Positions 4,798 to 63,905 of a DNA stretch of 64,000 nucleotides are shown piece by piece. A program made the position numbers and the translations under genes. Each line of letters opens with the position of its first letter. The stretch's first letter is position 1. The notes under the pieces are model-generated. The model worked only from the letters and a program-made list of their open reading frames with translations, did no database searches and was not told where the DNA came from. This DNA comes from a virus: the IMG/VR virus record IMGVR_UViG_3300023174_005338, positions 273,120-337,119 of that record; one strand, written 5' to 3'.

Positions 4798-6561
4798 ATG
4801 ATTCAAATAAAAAATCTCACAGTAAAAAACTTTATGAGCGTGGGCAACGCCACGCAAGGCATCGACTTTGATCGACGCGACTTGACACTTGTGTTGGGCG
4901 AGAACTTGGATCTTGGTGGCGACGGAAGCCGCAACGGCACAGGTAAAACTACTATAATCAATGCTCTTAGCTACAGCTTGTATGGGCAAGCATTAAGTAA
5001 CATCCGCAAGGACAACTTAGTCAACAAAACCAACAACAAAAACATGTTGGTCAGTTTGGATTTCAGTGTGGACGGCAAAGATTACCGGATTGAACGAGGC
5101 CGTAAACCCAACCTGCTGAGATTCTTTGTAAACAATCAAGAGCAAGTGGTCACAGACGAAGCACAAGGCGACAGCCGAGAAACACAGGATGCCATTGAAC
5201 ATACCTTGGGCCTCAGTCACGACATGTTCAAACACATTCTGGCACTCAACACTTACACAGAACCGTTTCTGAGTCTCAAAGCCACAGATCAAAGAACCAT
5301 CATTGAACAACTCCTGGGCATAACCATGCTGAGCGAGCGTGCCGATCGAATCAAAGAACACAACAGATCCACCAAAGAAGCCATACAGCAAGAAGAATTC
5401 CGTATTCGAGCTGTTCAAGAAGCCAATAAAAGGATAGAAGAACAGATTGAGGCTTTACGACGTAGACAGACATTATGGGTGACTAAACATGAAGAAGAGA
5501 TTACCAAACTCGAAACCGCGCTCGAAGAACTCAAAAAGATTGACATTGAAGCCGAGATTGCGGCCCACAAGGCGCACAAAGTATGGGATCAGAAGCGCAA
5601 GGACCTTAACGACCTGGCTGGACAGATCTCCCGCACGAAGCTTGATAAGGACCGCGAGAACAAAAGCATTGAGAAGCTTGGCAAGGAGATTGCGACACTT
5701 GAAGATCACACATGTCACACTTGCGGGCAGGCTTTCCACGACCATAAGCACCAACAGGTCCTGGCGGGTAAGCAGGCTGATCTGGCAAGAGCGCGAGAAG
5801 CGTGCCAAGAACATACACAGCTCCTTTCAGAACTCGAGACTGCCCACACAGCCTTGGGCACGTTAGGGCGACCACCTGCTATGTTCTATGATAGTGAAGA
5901 GGATGCCATACAACATCGTAGCAGCATGGCTGCCTTGCAAACTCAATTGACAAACAAACAGGCCGAAACAGATCCCTACGGCGAGCAGATAGCGGACATG
6001 CAAGGTCAGGCTTTGCAGGTAGTAAGCTATGACACACTCAATGAGCTGACCAGACTTCAGGAACATCAAGACTTCTTGCTCAAACTTTTGACCAGCAAGG
6101 ATTCATTCATACGCAAAAAAATCATTGAACAGAATTTGAGTTATTTGAATGCCAGACTCACACACTACCTGGATAGGATTGGCCTGCCGCATACCGTGGT
6201 GTTCCAGAACGATTTGACTGTGAGCATCGAGGAGCTGGGTCGTGAGCTGGACTTTGACAATTTGAGTCGTGGCGAACGCAACAGATTGATCTTGAGCATG
6301 AGCTGGGCCTTTCGTGATGTGTTTGAAAGCCTATACCAGCCCATCAATGTGCTGTTCATAGACGAAATGATTGATTCGGGCCTGGACACACAGGGTGTAG
6401 AAAATGCTCTTGCGTTGCTGAAGCACATGAGCCGCGAACGGCACAAGAGTATTTGGTTGGTCAGCCACAGAGATGAGCTAGCCGGAAGAGTTGAAAACAT
6501 ACTCCGAGTGGTCAAAGAAGGCGGCTTTACCAGTTACAACACGGATGTAGAAATTGCGTAG
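4798..6561 (+). CDS. 46: gp46-like recombination endonuclease subunit (Rad50/SbcC-like ATPase)
   Basis: 587 residues with SMC-type architecture: Walker A GTGKTT (K50) in the N-terminal ATPase lobe, a coiled-coil region around residues 190-430 interrupted by the zinc-hook CHTC (C306, C309), and a C-terminal lobe with signature LSRGERNRL and Walker B VLFIDEMIDSG (D522/E523). In T4, gp46 with gp47 resects DNA ends for recombination-dependent replication and packaging, and degrades host DNA. Length is close to T4 gp46. It lies downstream of the metabolic cassette instead of next to gp47. Its stop overlaps the following radical SAM gene. Confidence 0.95.
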   Translation: MIQIKNLTVKNFMSVGNATQGIDFDRRDLTLVLGENLDLGGDGSRNGTGKTTIINALSYSLYGQALSNIRKDNLVNKTNNKNMLVSLDFSVDGKDYRIERGRKPNLLRFFVNNQEQVVTDEAQGDSRETQDAIEHTLGLSHDMFKHILALNTYTEPFLSLKATDQRTIIEQLLGITMLSERADRIKEHNRSTKEAIQQEEFRIRAVQEANKRIEEQIEALRRRQTLWVTKHEEEITKLETALEELKKIDIEAEIAAHKAHKVWDQKRKDLNDLAGQISRTKLDKDRENKSIEKLGKEIATLEDHTCHTCGQAFHDHKHQQVLAGKQADLARAREACQEHTQLLSELETAHTALGTLGRPPAMFYDSEEDAIQHRSSMAALQTQLTNKQAETDPYGEQIADMQGQALQVVSYDTLNELTRLQEHQDFLLKLLTSKDSFIRKKIIEQNLSYLNARLTHYLDRIGLPHTVVFQNDLTVSIEELGRELDFDNLSRGERNRLILSMSWAFRDVFESLYQPINVLFIDEMIDSGLDTQGVENALALLKHMSRERHKSIWLVSHRDELAGRVENILRVVKEGGFTSYNTDVEIA

Positions 6562-7420
6562 AATACGAGTCTTACACATTGAACCCACCGACGTTTGTCA
6601 GGCTGCATGCCCGTTGTGTGCCCGAGAGACTGACCCAAACTTTAATAAAAGTTTAAAGCATCATCTCAGAGTAGAGCACATACAAAAACATTTTTCAGAA
6701 CAAGTAATTTCCAAACTGGATAAAATGTTCATGTGTGGCAATTATGGTGATCCGGCTGCAGGCTACTATACCATGGACATCTACAACCACTTTAGAAAAG
6801 TCAATCCAGAAATTGTGTTGGGTATGAACACCAATGGTGCTGTGCAAAGCACGTTCTTTTGGCATGCGTTGGGACGATTGTTCAATCAGCCCAAAGATTA
6901 TTGTGTGTTTAGCATAGACGGATTAGAGGATACCAATCACGTTTATCGTAAAAATGTCAATTGGGCCAAGCTAATGAGCAACGTTCAAGCCTACATTGCC
7001 GCAGGTGGAAGTGCCCATTGGGACATGCTGGTGTACAAACACAATCAACATCAAGTGGATGCTTGCCAGCAACTGGCTCGTGACATGGGATTCAAGTGGT
7101 TCCGTGCCAAGGTCAGCAAGCGTGGATTCACTGATCATTTAGAATTTCCCATCGGGTGGCAACCGCCTGCGGTCAAGGCGGGGCCCATCAAATGCCATGT
7201 GATTAATGAAAAAAGCATGTACATTGATGCGCAAGGTCGTGCCAGTGCCTGTTGCTGGCTTGGTGCCACGCAACAAGATTTTGTCAAAGATGATTTGGCA
7301 ACTGTAAAATTAACTTGGAAAACAGACACACCCAATCCGGTGTGTGTCAGTGCTTGTTCCACAAACAAAAATAAAACCGTATTCCAAGACCAATGGCAAC
7401 GCGAGGTACAACTGTGTTAG
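6554..7420 (+). CDS. Radical SAM protein (first of a tandem pair)
   Basis: 288 residues beginning at TTG; an in-frame stop lies two codons upstream and the next ATG falls after the cluster motif, so TTG is forced. The motif CQAACPLC (CX3CX2C) binds the [4Fe-4S] cluster that cleaves S-adenosylmethionine. A second cysteine-rich part at the C-terminus (MYIDAQGRASACCW, then CVSACS) looks like a SPASM/twitch auxiliary-cluster domain. Such proteins modify peptides or small molecules; the substrate is unknown. The start overlaps the end of gp46 by eight bases and the end overlaps the next radical SAM gene by 28 bases, so the three are probably co-translated. Confidence 0.8.
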   Translation: MRRIRVLHIEPTDVCQAACPLCARETDPNFNKSLKHHLRVEHIQKHFSEQVISKLDKMFMCGNYGDPAAGYYTMDIYNHFRKVNPEIVLGMNTNGAVQSTFFWHALGRLFNQPKDYCVFSIDGLEDTNHVYRKNVNWAKLMSNVQAYIAAGGSAHWDMLVYKHNQHQVDACQQLARDMGFKWFRAKVSKRGFTDHLEFPIGWQPPAVKAGPIKCHVINEKSMYIDAQGRASACCWLGATQQDFVKDDLATVKLTWKTDTPNPVCVSACSTNKNKTVFQDQWQREVQLC

Positions 7421-8424
7421 CCACCTGGCATTTTCATATCGAAATCAGTTCAAAGTGTACCCTGCGTTGCCCACGCTGTGCCAGACAAGAGGTTCCCGAC
7501 AGTTTAGTAAACACTGAACTGGATTTAGAATTTTTTAAAAGAAACTTTACCGCAGAGTTTGTTCTTGACAATGTAGAAAAGATCACATTTTGTGGTGACG
7601 ACGGTGATCCTATCTATGCTCACGACCTTATACCAGTGATTCAATACATCAAGTCAATCAAACCTGTTGAGATTGTAGTTGTCACAAATGGATCACACAA
7701 GAAACCAGAATGGTGGCGTGAACTTGGTGGCGTGCTTAGTGAGCAAGATACTGTACACTTTAGCATCGACGGTTGGGACTACCCAAGCAACAATCTGTAT
7801 CGTGTCAACAGTGATTTCAACAGTATTGTCGACGGAATCACTGCACTACGATCAACCTCTGAGTGCCACCTTGTGTGGGCTGCCATTGTCTTTGGGTTCA
7901 ATGAACACCAACTGGGCGCTATGAAAAATCATGCACGTTTGCTAGATATGGATGTATTTCAACTTACCAAGAGCACCAAGTTTGGCTCCGTTTATCTCTC
8001 CTACGGTCCAATCGATGAGCTAGAGCCCAGCCGGCCGTTTGTCAGCAGTTCACACAGATTTGAGAGAGATGTTACACCGATAAGCTCGCGTGGACTCAAT
8101 TCACAGACAAACACCAAGAACATACAATTATACAAATCTGCTGTAGAGATCAACGGTGTAAAACCCCTGTGTGAAATTGGCAACAAAGGACTTTATATTG
8201 ACGCCCAAGGTAGATTATTCCCTTGCTGTTGGGTAGCAAACCGCTACAGTCACAATTCAGAATGGAAAGCTATTGCTAACAAATTTGATTTGAATCGTCG
8301 CACACTGGCCGACGCTGTAACTGACGATTTTTGGTCAACAACATTTAAAACCTTTGGGTGGCAAGAGTGCCAGACTAAGTGTGTAGCGAGCAGGGTAAAT
8401 GAAAAATATGCAACTGAGTGGTAA
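7393..8424 (+). CDS. Radical SAM protein (second of a tandem pair)
   Basis: 343 residues. The N-terminal CTLRCPRC is a radical SAM CX3CX2C motif. The C-terminal half contains LYIDAQGRLFPCCW, closely matching the equivalent segment of the preceding gene, so the two are probably diverged duplicates with SPASM/twitch-type auxiliary sites. The middle part, including FCGDDGDPIYAHDLIPVIQYI and FSIDGWD, follows the usual radical SAM barrel pattern. It overlaps the upstream gene by 28 bases. No candidate peptide substrate with a clear leader was recognised nearby. Function is unassigned beyond the enzyme class. Confidence 0.8.
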   Translation: MATRGTTVLATWHFHIEISSKCTLRCPRCARQEVPDSLVNTELDLEFFKRNFTAEFVLDNVEKITFCGDDGDPIYAHDLIPVIQYIKSIKPVEIVVVTNGSHKKPEWWRELGGVLSEQDTVHFSIDGWDYPSNNLYRVNSDFNSIVDGITALRSTSECHLVWAAIVFGFNEHQLGAMKNHARLLDMDVFQLTKSTKFGSVYLSYGPIDELEPSRPFVSSSHRFERDVTPISSRGLNSQTNTKNIQLYKSAVEINGVKPLCEIGNKGLYIDAQGRLFPCCWVANRYSHNSEWKAIANKFDLNRRTLADAVTDDFWSTTFKTFGWQECQTKCVASRVNEKYATEW

Positions 8425-8442
8425 AATGATAAATTATAGTCC

Positions 8443-8871
8443 ATGGTATGGCTGTACGAAAACACTCCGATTGAACAACTACCCGAAGACTGTGTTGGTT
8501 TTGTTTATTTGATCACAAATAACGTTACCGGCAGAAAGTACATTGGAAAAAAATTAGCAAAGTTTAGCAAGACCTCATATCGAGTAGTAAAATTAAAGAA
8601 CGGCTACAAGAAACGTAAAAAGATAAGAAGCAAAATAGATTCAGACTGGCAACTATACTATGGCAGCAACGATCAACTCAACCGAGACATTGCAGAGCTG
8701 GGCTCAGACAACTTCACAAGAGAAATATTGTTTTATTGCCGATCAAAAGCAGAATGCAGTTATGTTGAAGCACGCGAACAATTCAATCATAAAGTATTGG
8801 AATCAGATGACTACTACAATGGACAGATTGTTTGCCGTATACACGGAAGTCATATAAAAAACAAAATTTAA
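8443..8871 (+). CDS. GIY-YIG-type endonuclease (Seg-like)
   Basis: 142 residues. GFVYLITNNVTGRKYIGKK is a GIY-YIG nuclease signature in the form FVY-X10-KYIG, followed by a lysine/arginine-rich stretch and DNFTREIL, typical of the end of the fold. T4-like phages carry many freestanding homing endonucleases of this class, and some short versions are conserved phage nucleases of unknown role. It lies just upstream of the 395-base gene-free region that looks like a structured RNA, which could mean a former intron/nuclease pair; that link is speculative. No second DNA-binding module is visible. Confidence 0.7.
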   Translation: MVWLYENTPIEQLPEDCVGFVYLITNNVTGRKYIGKKLAKFSKTSYRVVKLKNGYKKRKKIRSKIDSDWQLYYGSNDQLNRDIAELGSDNFTREILFYCRSKAECSYVEAREQFNHKVLESDDYYNGQIVCRIHGSHIKNKI

Positions 8872-8873
8872 AC

Positions 8874-8887
8874 TTAGATAGGCAACA
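8874..8887 (+). repeat. 14-base element shared with the gp32 leader
   Basis: TTAGATAGGCAACA occurs here and again at 63868-63881 before gene 32. Its core AGGCAAC recurs exactly 100 bases downstream at 8980-8986 within the candidate RNA. Confidence 0.7.
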
Positions 8888-9267
8888 ACATGACTCTGCG
8901 GTAGGACTACCTACCCCCATTGAGGAACGGTGAGATACCCGGTCCAGATTCTTGGGTGTCAAAGGCAATTGCTAACTTAAGGCAACAAATGGTTTGAGCT
9001 CTGTGAAAAAGACACAACTCATGCTCATAGGACTTGGTTCTTCTCGGGTCACTAGGGTTCCGTTGATATGTGAAGCTTGAGTAGGGGGTACCGGTCAACC
9101 GCCTCCGCGTCGCGAGACAATCTCATTAGAAACGAAGTGACTGCTCCGACTCGGATAATGCGGCCTTTTTCACCCGGCAACGGGTGAATTGTGACCACAT
9201 GATCTGGATAATACGGAAAAAGAAATCATTGATGAGCGACAGCGAATCAATAGATCTCTAAGAGATC
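8874..9267 (+). ncRNA. Candidate structured RNA in a gene-free interval
   Basis: About 395 bases without a credible gene. Nested complementary segments suggest a folded plus-strand RNA: 8912-8918 with 9084-9090 (TACCCCC/GGGGGTA), 8926-8930 with 9060-9064, 8937-8941 with 9045-9049, and 8995-8999 with 9023-9027. A downstream domain includes a perfect 8-bp hairpin with a GCAA tetraloop (9169-9188), a TCCG/CGGA hairpin (9145-9155) and perfect hairpins at 9228-9251 and 9252-9268. GNRA loops are strand-specific and favour the plus strand. The 5' edge has an element shared with the gp32 leader. It does not match tRNA, tmRNA or group I intron core motifs that I can recognise. Confidence 0.45.
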
Positions 9268-9603
9268 TCAGAACTGATCAGGAAAGTCTCGGAAAAGTGC
9301 GTGCTGAATGTTGCCACTCACAAACTGATTAAAACTTTTGTGTTTGGTTTCTAGTTCACCTTCAAGTGGTGCGACTCTTCGGAATGCCGCGTCCATTTGA
9401 CCCATGTCCTTGAATTCCATTAGTATCATGAATTCAGGCATGTCTGCAATACTACGAAAACCCATCTTGCATCTAGTGATTCTATATGATTCCATTTTTC
9501 CTTCTGAGATCAAATGATCAAAGAAACTTTTCATTCCGTTGACCCAGTCCAGGTCTGAGATATTGCCTTCTTTGTCTGCCCAAATTGTATATAAGTCTGC
9601 CAT
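9268..9603 (-). CDS. DUF6614-like small protein
   Basis: 111 residues. The sequence (DLYTIWADKEG near the start, a central ESYRITRCKMGF and the end FRDFPDQF) looks like the DUF6614 family of small alpha/beta proteins of unknown function found in proteobacteria and phages; this recognition is from memory of the pattern. It is the last gene of a five-gene minus-strand run, its start touching the stop of the gene before it. A perfect hairpin at 9252-9268 abuts its stop codon. No catalytic motif is obvious. Confidence 0.6.
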   Translation of the reverse strand: MADLYTIWADKEGNISDLDWVNGMKSFFDHLISEGKMESYRITRCKMGFRSIADMPEFMILMEFKDMGQMDAAFRRVAPLEGELETKHKSFNQFVSGNIQHALFRDFPDQF

Positions 9604-21796: not shown

Positions 21797-21887
21797 CTTG
21801 TCAACGCAATCCTGCGTTTTATGCGGCTCTAACCCAGCCGCGTAGTCGCTAGAACCGACATTGGGCTTCTTTAAGGAGAAAACAAAA

Positions 21888-22679
21888 ATGGGACGTCCTC
21901 TCAAAATTAAAAAAATTATCGAAACTGGTTATAATTCTACTACCGGTGCAAACCCTGGTGTTGACATCGGTTTCAATGCACTAACTAGTTTGACAGCACC
22001 TGTGTACCCTAGTCCTGTATGGGATTCGGCCACAGAATATCTAGGCGTGGTTGGCGGAGCTCAGCCTCCTACCGTGGCCAGCACCAACTATCCTATCGTC
22101 AAGTGCCGTGTGTTTGTCACAGGTTTTGCCGAAGCAGATGGTCAAATTATTCGTCAAAAAGGCGCACACAAGTTCTTGGTAGCAGATACAACCAGCAGAA
22201 CAGCACTGGTGGCCAATCAGGCCTATCGCATTACTACAGTAGGCAACACAGACTGGGCCAGCTATGGTGCTCCCAACGCACAGATTGGCACAATCTTCAC
22301 AGCCACAGCGGCCTTGGGCAATACAGGCACAGGTCGTGTCAACGCGGTTGGCATCTGTGTGTTGGCCAACGATTTGAGCCCCACAGCCGGCAACATGAGC
22401 ATCAGCTACTTTGATAATTCATCCACCGAAGTTGCAATCAGCAAGCTAACCAACAAGTTCTTGCAGAATTTCAACGGCGGCGAAGCTGGTGGCAATGCCG
22501 ATACTGGCAACGTTTGGGATTACACACAAGTGGTCAACAACGTTACCTATGCTGCCAACTTCTTCAGCGACGAAGGGGTCACAGCCAAATCGGGTGCAGA
22601 AGTTGACACCTGGGCAGGCACCAGCCAGCTCAGCAGCGGCAACTTGGATCTTGCTATTGTAGAAAACTACAATACTTAA
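21888..22679 (+). CDS. Virion structural protein, unknown role
   Basis: 263 residues from ATG 21888, chosen because AAGGAG lies just before it. The start MGRPLKIKKI is basic and is followed by a beta-rich, threonine/alanine/glycine-rich body with no catalytic motif. A strong ribosome site, a late promoter and a terminator directly after the gene make it a single, highly expressed late unit. A capsid decoration or abundant tail protein would fit; this is inference from context. It is not recognised as a known T4 protein. Confidence 0.6.
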   Translation: MGRPLKIKKIIETGYNSTTGANPGVDIGFNALTSLTAPVYPSPVWDSATEYLGVVGGAQPPTVASTNYPIVKCRVFVTGFAEADGQIIRQKGAHKFLVADTTSRTALVANQAYRITTVGNTDWASYGAPNAQIGTIFTATAALGNTGTGRVNAVGICVLANDLSPTAGNMSISYFDNSSTEVAISKLTNKFLQNFNGGEAGGNADTGNVWDYTQVVNNVTYAANFFSDEGVTAKSGAEVDTWAGTSQLSSGNLDLAIVENYNT

Positions 22680-40377: not shown

Positions 40378-41036
40378 TCATTGGCGTATGCGGACTTATA
40401 GGTGCCGGCAAAGACACCATTGCAGACTATCTGGTAAACATACATCAGTTCAGACGTGAAAGTTTTGCCAACACTTTGAAAGATGCTGTGGCCAATGTGT
40501 TTGGATGGGATCGCGAACTGCTGGAAGGACGCACACGGCACAGCCGAGAATGGCGCGAACAAGTGGATCCTTGGTGGGCCGAACGCTTGGGCATGCCCGA
40601 TCTTACTCCAAGATGGGTGCTACAATATTGGGGCACCGAAGTGGTGCGTAGAGGATTTCACGACGATACCTGGATAGCCAGCCTAGAAAATCGCCTGCGA
40701 AAAACCACAGATGATGTGGTCATTAGCGATTGCAGATTTTCCAACGAAATTGATGCCATTAAAAGAGCCGGCGGCGTGGTTATTAGGGTGGTTCGAGGTC
40801 CAGAGCCCAAATGGTACCCGCTAGCTGAATCTGTAAACGCAGGACCCACAAACATCACCTGGTCATTGAGCAAAGATCAATTGGCCAAATACAAAGTTCA
40901 TGCCAGTGAAACTGCTTGGATTGGCACTGAGTTTGATGCTGTGTTAGACAACAACAGCACCATGGATCATTTGTACAGCCAACTCACAGGTCTGGTTCAA
41001 GATCTCCAGGCCTCCAAACCAGGTCCGACCTGTTGA
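40374..41036 (+). CDS. 1: Deoxynucleoside monophosphate kinase gp1
   Basis: 220 residues (T4 gp1 is 241). The N-terminal P-loop GLIGAGKDT has its lysine at residue 13, and the FANTLKDAV, GWDRELLEG and WWAERLG segments match phage dNMP kinases. It phosphorylates dTMP, dGMP (and modified dCMP in T4) to diphosphates for replication. The DVVISDCRFSNEIDAIKRAGG segment is the typical Walker B-like region. Its four-base overlap with the exonuclease gene suggests coupled recycling of nucleotides from degraded nucleic acid. Confidence 0.93.
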   Translation: MIIGVCGLIGAGKDTIADYLVNIHQFRRESFANTLKDAVANVFGWDRELLEGRTRHSREWREQVDPWWAERLGMPDLTPRWVLQYWGTEVVRRGFHDDTWIASLENRLRKTTDDVVISDCRFSNEIDAIKRAGGVVIRVVRGPEPKWYPLAESVNAGPTNITWSLSKDQLAKYKVHASETAWIGTEFDAVLDNNSTMDHLYSQLTGLVQDLQASKPGPTC

Positions 41037-41331
41037 TTTCTATCACACAATTCTGACAAATCGTTTTAAGATTTCTCAACGTGCTGTTGTTGAGATTGCC
41101 GTCTACATGATATACCACAAGCTGTGCTGAATACTTGGCACGAAACCCACAGCGATCACATGTGGGTTTTTTCTTATAGCCTGACAATTTCCAACGCGGA
41201 TCCGGCGGTCTTTTTTTCTTGGATTTATTCAAGCACACAGAGCACTTGCTGCGATAATATATCTTGTTGTATTTGTGATAGGCCACAGCACGTGGTCTTT
41301 GGCGACAATCTGGACATATAGGTCTATTCAT
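40984..41331 (-). CDS. HNH-like zinc-finger protein
   Basis: 115 residues, rich in K, R and C. Two cysteine pairs near the start (CPDC, CSVC) and CDRCGF later form zinc-binding knuckles; VVYHVDGNLNNSTLRNLKTICQNC is an HNH-type nuclease core (H, N, N). It may be a mobile endonuclease or a small DNA-binding protein conserved in marine T4-like phages. It overlaps the end of gene 1 by 53 bases, tail to tail. A late promoter stands five bases before its ATG, as for other endonucleases here. Confidence 0.7.
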   Translation of the reverse strand: MNRPICPDCRQRPRAVAYHKYNKIYYRSKCSVCLNKSKKKRPPDPRWKLSGYKKKPTCDRCGFRAKYSAQLVVYHVDGNLNNSTLRNLKTICQNCVIEINRSDLVWRPGDLEPDL

Positions 41332-41336
41332 AGCCG

Positions 41337-41344
41337 TATTTAGT
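41337..41344 (-). promoter_or_regulatory. Late promoter of HNH-like gene
   Basis: ACTAAATA on the minus strand, five bases before its ATG. Confidence 0.45.
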
Positions 41345-41395
41345 ACACGGACCTACATATAGGCGTCAACAACCGCCGGGTTTTTTGGTTTCGCC

Positions 41396-41403
41396 GATAA
41401 ATA
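41396..41403 (+). promoter_or_regulatory. Late promoter of tail sheath gene
   Basis: GATAAATA, 27 bases before ATG 41431 with AAAGGA between. Confidence 0.55.
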
Positions 41404-41430
41404 TCTTTAATTAATAAAAAGGAATTAGTC

Positions 41431-63845: not shown

Positions 63846-63905
63846 AGGCAACGTAACATCTAAACATTTAGATAGGCAACACATAGTAAACTTTAGAAAG
63901 GCAAC
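63846..63905 (+). promoter_or_regulatory. Triple AGGCAAC repeat in gp32 leader
   Basis: AGGCAAC occurs at 63846, 63874 and 63899 between the terminator and the gp32 ATG; the last copy includes the ribosome site AAAGG. The middle copy is part of the 14-base element shared with 8874-8887. Confidence 0.6.

Follow-up and report, generated by a model that had tools for sequence, protein, structure and literature searches.

Among large non-coding RNAs of phages, two described families resemble in kind the RNA that we report here: GOLLD, a large structured phage and prophage RNA derived from lakes, whose 3' region is conserved and whose 5' region is less so, and ROOL, which is large, ornate and phage-encoded and has no known protein partner (PMC12286853). 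Further structured RNAs known from lakes or from T4-like phages of aquatic habitats, namely manA, wcaG and freshwater-2, are annotated as cis-regulatory leaders. A short repeated word that is read by one partner is a feature of duplicated-seed small RNAs and of type III antitoxin RNAs.

The window, i.e., the whole stretch of 64,000 nucleotides that was analysed, covers positions 273120–337119 of a 337,119-base virus record in IMG/VR. An initial sequence-only reading had pointed to a gene-free interval between convergent genes as the likely place of a large structured RNA, and both the interval (8872–9267, 396 bases with no plausible gene) and the convergent ORFs on its two sides were confirmed. 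The features of the locus, in window positions, are as follows.

8443–8871, plus strand: SegE-like GIY-YIG ORF (PF19835 SegE_GIY-YIG, E 7e-34); the RNA lies directly 3' and is co-oriented
8872–9268, plus strand: entire conserved non-coding RNA region (candidate extent, from nucleotide homologues)
8874–8887, plus strand: leader-like element TTAGATAGGCAACA, also in the gp32 leader; optional in homologues
8900–8915, plus strand: P1, variable hairpin with double changes in 7/7 pairs
8916–8956, plus strand: P2 (8916–8919/8953–8956) around P3 (8924–8930/8939–8945), from the 52-homologue fold
8971–8983, plus strand: P4, short hairpin with a conserved loop, from the 52-homologue fold
8995–9021, plus strand: P5, covarying hairpin; loop containing AAAAAGA in most members of groups A and B
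9028–9077, plus strand: P6 (9028–9037/9044–9054) and the nearly invariant P7 (9055–9063/9068–9077)
9079–9152, plus strand: P8, predicted long-range helix of GAGT (9079–9082) with ACTC (9149–9152), 99% paired
9084–9106, plus strand: P9, hairpin GGGGGTACCGGTCAACCGCCTCC, a core motif common to groups A and B
9109–9118, plus strand: P10, variable hairpin, from the 52-homologue fold
9153–9159, plus strand: 7-mer copy 1, GGATAAT, preceded by ACTC
9168–9189, plus strand: P11, hairpin between the 7-mer copies; GCAA loop here, other loops elsewhere
9206–9212, plus strand: 7-mer copy 2, GGATAAT, identical to copy 1 and preceded by ATCT
within 9228–9268, plus strand: P12 (9228–9233/9246–9251 with 9236–9237/9242–9243), strongly covarying, at the convergent junction
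within 9228–9268, plus strand: P13 (9252–9258/9262–9268), strongly covarying hairpin, at the convergent junction
9268–9603, minus strand: DUF6614 ORF (PF20319), the convergent neighbour

Directly before the SegE-like ORF, two radical SAM ORFs stand side by side, the first of which (6554–7420) scores below and the second (7393–8424) above the Pfam cut-off. A further interval of about 395 bases is present between long plus-strand ORFs at 41037–41430, and its sole overlap is with a 115-aa minus-strand ORF (40984–41331).

When the Rfam 15 covariance models were run on 8872–9267, none matched at gathering and only chance matches appeared up to E 10; the RNA matches no catalogued family. It resembles GOLLD and ROOL in kind, but by this covariance-model test it is not a member of either. 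GOLLD is often longer than 800 nt and often lies near tRNA islands, whereas the RNA of the window is about 350–400 nt and lies beside a SegE-like ORF where convergent genes meet, with no tRNA in the window according to ARAGORN. ROOL, which is also often found near tRNA islands, differs in position and fold, and tandem identical 7-mers have not been described in it. Among three related jumbo phages of similar size, the tRNA content differs sharply: ARAGORN runs on overlapping stretches gave 5 tRNAs for the record of the window and about 27 and 30 for the two others. Unlike the leaders manA, wcaG and freshwater-2, the RNA is located on the 3' side of genes, where two gene blocks converge; a freshwater-2 RNA (RF02980, 65.8 bits) is present in the same window at 21802–21890 on the plus strand, as the single Rfam hit of the window, and precedes an ORF without a PHROG match. 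It differs from duplicated-seed and type III antitoxin RNAs in that its word varies between relatives, in both copies together, and in that no toxin gene is adjacent. Models of group I and group II introns gave no match and the ORFs on both sides of the region are complete, and a tmRNA was recognised neither by ARAGORN nor by Rfam. In the literature that we searched, we found no description of this RNA; it may be listed, as an unnamed candidate, in a 2023 survey that collected possible structured RNAs from viral sequences.

Homologues of the RNA were found at the same genomic place in more than 230 phage loci of IMG/VR among the matches listed; some contigs occur in more than one of the three scans of IMG/VR. 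When listed loci were fetched via the two flanking proteins, 153 of 161 carried the RNA after an iterated profile search, and the other 8 were mostly cut contigs; a scan with an RNA pattern gave 118 new loci among the matches listed, and the RNA was present in all of them (118/118). In nearly all loci having upstream sequence, SegE precedes the RNA on the same strand, and the RNA usually starts no farther than about 15 bases from the point where the SegE match ends. The homologues form two main subgroups, A (including the RNA of the window) and B, which differ in the 5' domain and have the 3' domain in common, and a covariance model built on this common domain reaches remoter forms also. Seven of nine other large records contain a DNA match to the RNA of the window and the remaining two have divergent forms (loci L356 and L035); in the genomes tested, there is one copy per genome. 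Blastn with one group A and one group B query matched none of the 50,697 phage records of INPHARED, the covariance model R1 found nothing in the four cultured phages having the nearest SegE, and bacterial genomes scanned with a 17-base pattern gave chance matches only. We conclude that the family is carried by T4-like jumbo phages of fresh water, a group that is widespread in lake metagenomes.

In many of these phages, one or two extra ORFs of changing families (about 0.7–2.4 kb) flank the RNA. Long inserted ORFs are always on the plus strand between SegE and the RNA and always on the minus strand between the RNA and DUF6614, and the RNA marks the meeting point of rightward and leftward gene blocks. 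Because varied ORFs have been inserted without loss of the RNA, it belongs to no single gene. The interval between SegE and DUF6614 appears as a cargo site in loci such as L017, L109, L114, L360 and L380, on either side of the RNA, and several of the cargo ORFs begin with GCSFTAG-like SGNH hydrolase motifs.

The evidence for a structured RNA comes mainly from compensatory changes. In a tree-aware test (G-test with product correction, the null being substitutions replayed on the tree for random columns), 35 column pairs were significant in group A (121 sequences) and 32 in group B (58 sequences), and these were mostly Watson–Crick; when the alignments were folded, kept double changes were seen at 45 of the 85 pairs predicted for group A and at 47 of the 78 for group B. 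We also scored an 84-pair structure of group A on 52 diverse homologues: 98.5% of cells were paired compared with 87.0% after shuffling, double compensatory changes occurred at 44 of 84 pairs, and the covariation score was 0.343 against 0.122 after shuffling and at most 0.055 when partners were slid by one to three columns. Such covariation beyond phylogeny places the region among structured ncRNAs. Pairs of the G–U type greatly outnumbered A–C pairs (478 versus 19 in group A, 262 versus 41 in group B), which shows that the plus strand is the RNA strand; an RNA on the minus strand was rejected, its consensus fold being weaker and its G–U asymmetry wrong. No long reading frame is common to the homologues, which differ in the length of their longest stretch without a stop (median 44 aa on the plus and 60 aa on the minus strand), and a conserved ORF was rejected. 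The proposal of a large structured RNA has therefore gained firm ground from the covariation, the strand asymmetry and the lack of a shared long frame. Folding energy, which the sequence-only reading had also brought forward, was better than that of dinucleotide shuffles on both strands, with z of -2.69 on the plus strand (1/100 shuffles as good) and -2.19 on the minus strand, a modest difference that is suggestive only. On these comparative grounds the locus almost certainly encodes a structured RNA on the plus strand, and its conservation, fold and strand are established, as is its constant place where the rightward and leftward gene blocks meet.

The fold obtained from the alignments is a chain of local hairpins (8900–9106) followed by a 3' domain. 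The helix TACCCCC (8912–8918)/GGGGGTA (9084–9090), which had been proposed to enclose nested helices, is possible in the window sequence alone and was rejected: in the 52 homologues 76% of its cells were paired, the same as after shuffling, with zero double changes, and the GGGGG arm pairs locally with 9102–9106 in a hairpin showing GC to AU exchange (9084–9106). The proposed GCAA-capped hairpin was found to be present (9168–9176/9181–9189), as were further short hairpins; in group A the capping loop is mostly TGCATA, and in the RNA of the window it is GCAA. P8 is invariant and hence has no covariation support. Two other proposals concern short repeated words. AGGCAAC does occur at 8880 and 8980, but with 26 copies across the window the pair is not remarkable. 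The 14-mer TTAGATAGGCAACA is indeed common to the RNA region (8874) and the gp32 leader (63868). Because the similar TTTAGAAAGGCAAC lies at about 63890, immediately upstream of the likely gp32 start, the 14-mer is possibly a leader or ribosome-binding element of the phage; its version at the 5' end of the RNA is present in only about half of the group A homologues. Before the likely gp32 start (63914), TTTAGA(T/A)AGGCAAC is found twice (63868–63881 and about 63890–63903).

Another characteristic of the 3' domain is the tandem 7-mer, which is GGATAAT in both copies of the RNA of the window. At least 12 different 7-mers are present across the homologues (GGATAAT, AGATAAT, GGATGAT, GGATGAA, AGATGAA, AGATGAT, ACATGAA, GCATAAT, GGATGAG, AGATGAG, AGATCAA and AGACGAA), and the two copies match within each sequence. 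With a regular expression permitting disagreement, copy 1 equalled copy 2 in 196 of 196 distinct sequences. The aligned rows agreed in 58/58 cases for group B and 116/121 for group A; the 5 discordant rows differ solely at the last position, where gap columns were removed, and in the raw sequences of two of them (L022 and L031) the 7-mers agree. Parsimony counted 46 double versus 3 single changes; recombination of whole segments could inflate the number of independent double changes, but it does not account for the lack of discordant forms. Among the strongest non-Watson–Crick signals of the whole alignment are column pairs that join the copies. Copy 1 is preceded by CTC and copy 2 by TCT in nearly all of 179 rows; that these trinucleotides are constant and unlike each other speaks against gene conversion, because homogenisation would need to end precisely there. 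In related loci, in the region corresponding to about 9135–9215 of the window, both 7-mers stand inside a longer unit GTGAC-N8-xAYYY-7mer-R, and the bases preceding AYYY agree partly between the repeat copies, less strictly than the 7-mer. Several roles of the 7-mer were rejected: a sense codon plus stop codon, or a bypass like that of T4 gene 60, because AGATCAA and AGACGAA exist, the frame closes and the spacing is not kept in frame; a promoter, GGATAAT being present only three times in the window; and CsrA-type GGA binding, as variants without GGA occur.

Since the 7-mers change together, they must read something in common, and we regard one partner shared by both copies as probable from the alignments. 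In cis, we found no consistent complement of the 7-mer, and pairing of the 7-mers with each other or elsewhere in cis was rejected. An 11-nt complement able to pair with both copies is absent from the genome, the two further genomic sites whose flank is pyrimidine-matched both fall inside ORFs, no complement was found near phage gene starts, and the alignable regions of three genomes with different 7-mers contained no covarying complement. Residues of SegE and DUF6614 were unlinked to the switches of the 7-mer, the best column explaining at most 37%. A complementary target of a trans-acting antisense RNA was thus not found in the phage genomes, which were the genomes covered. The likeliest partner is a nucleic acid, bound by base pairing, that belongs to the host or to a phage region outside the alignments, and the alternative is a protein. 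The geometry of the 7-mer module is a prediction, because P8 beside copy 1 is invariant.

Our preferred reading, for which we estimate a probability of about 50%, is a trans-acting, ornate phage ncRNA of about 340–400 nt on the plus strand, belonging to a non-Rfam family and contacting one partner with two loops. The RNA would be transcribed as the 3'-terminal part of the rightward block, then matured, and would act in trans, which we somewhat favour over action as a 3' UTR element. It would consist of a subgroup-variable 5' domain and a kept 3' domain composed of P9 and a tandem reader module (ACTC-7mer, hairpin, ATCT-7mer), both 7-mers of which would bind the same partner. Action in cis, as the 3' UTR of the last gene of the rightward block that protects or terminates the transcript and ends with P12 and P13, appears rather unlikely. 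The RNA always ends the plus-strand block at the convergence point, and at the junction it has two perfect hairpins, P12 and P13, that covary; however, we found no T-run terminator on the plus strand in or after the region, the upstream gene swaps freely while the RNA stays, and a terminator or stabiliser could do without 300 nt of structure that is near-invariant and covarying and without tandem identical 7-mers.

By analogy with GOLLD and ROOL, the 7-mers might be inter-subunit contacts of an RNA-only homo-oligomer or cage, in keeping with a large, ornate, phage-encoded RNA that has, as in GOLLD, a conserved 3' and a variable 5' region, and with the self-complementary AUCURGAU (R = A or G) at copy 2, which is like symmetric kissing loops (PMC12286853). 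We consider this unlikely, as 7-mer positions 5 and 7 covary outside this palindrome, variants with GCAT or ACAT break it, there is no other cis complement, and the size is about half that of GOLLD. GIY-YIG endonucleases travel with group I introns, and the RNA is always beside SegE, so that a ribozyme or remnant intron travelling with the endonuclease gene might be supposed; it is very improbable, because neither an intron nor a ribozyme model of Rfam matched at gathering or up to E 10, the RNA interrupts no gene, and inspection by eye revealed no group I core. The fixed site, the single occurrence per genome and the tandem direct repeat would also suit a DNA element, such as an origin or a packaging or recombination site with hairpins formed in DNA, but G–U pairs are kept 25 times (group A) and 6 times (group B) more than A–C pairs, which only a plus-strand RNA explains, and this possibility is nearly negligible. 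Within the trans-acting reading, a more specific and doubtful proposal is that the 7-mers are a duplicated, exchangeable guide, switched in concert, that pairs with the same short sequence of the host or of a rival phage; to our knowledge, a guide RNA architecture of this duplicated-address kind has not been described before.

Annotation pipelines miss this RNA because it has no Rfam match and none among the 50,697 phage records. With it, phage biology gains a large RNA family beside GOLLD and ROOL. The concerted 7-mers make its function testable, because the true partner must distinguish natural variants, e.g., GGATAAT and AGATGAA, and these variants provide a built-in specificity control. 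If the guide proposal is true, the address would change as hosts or rivals change.
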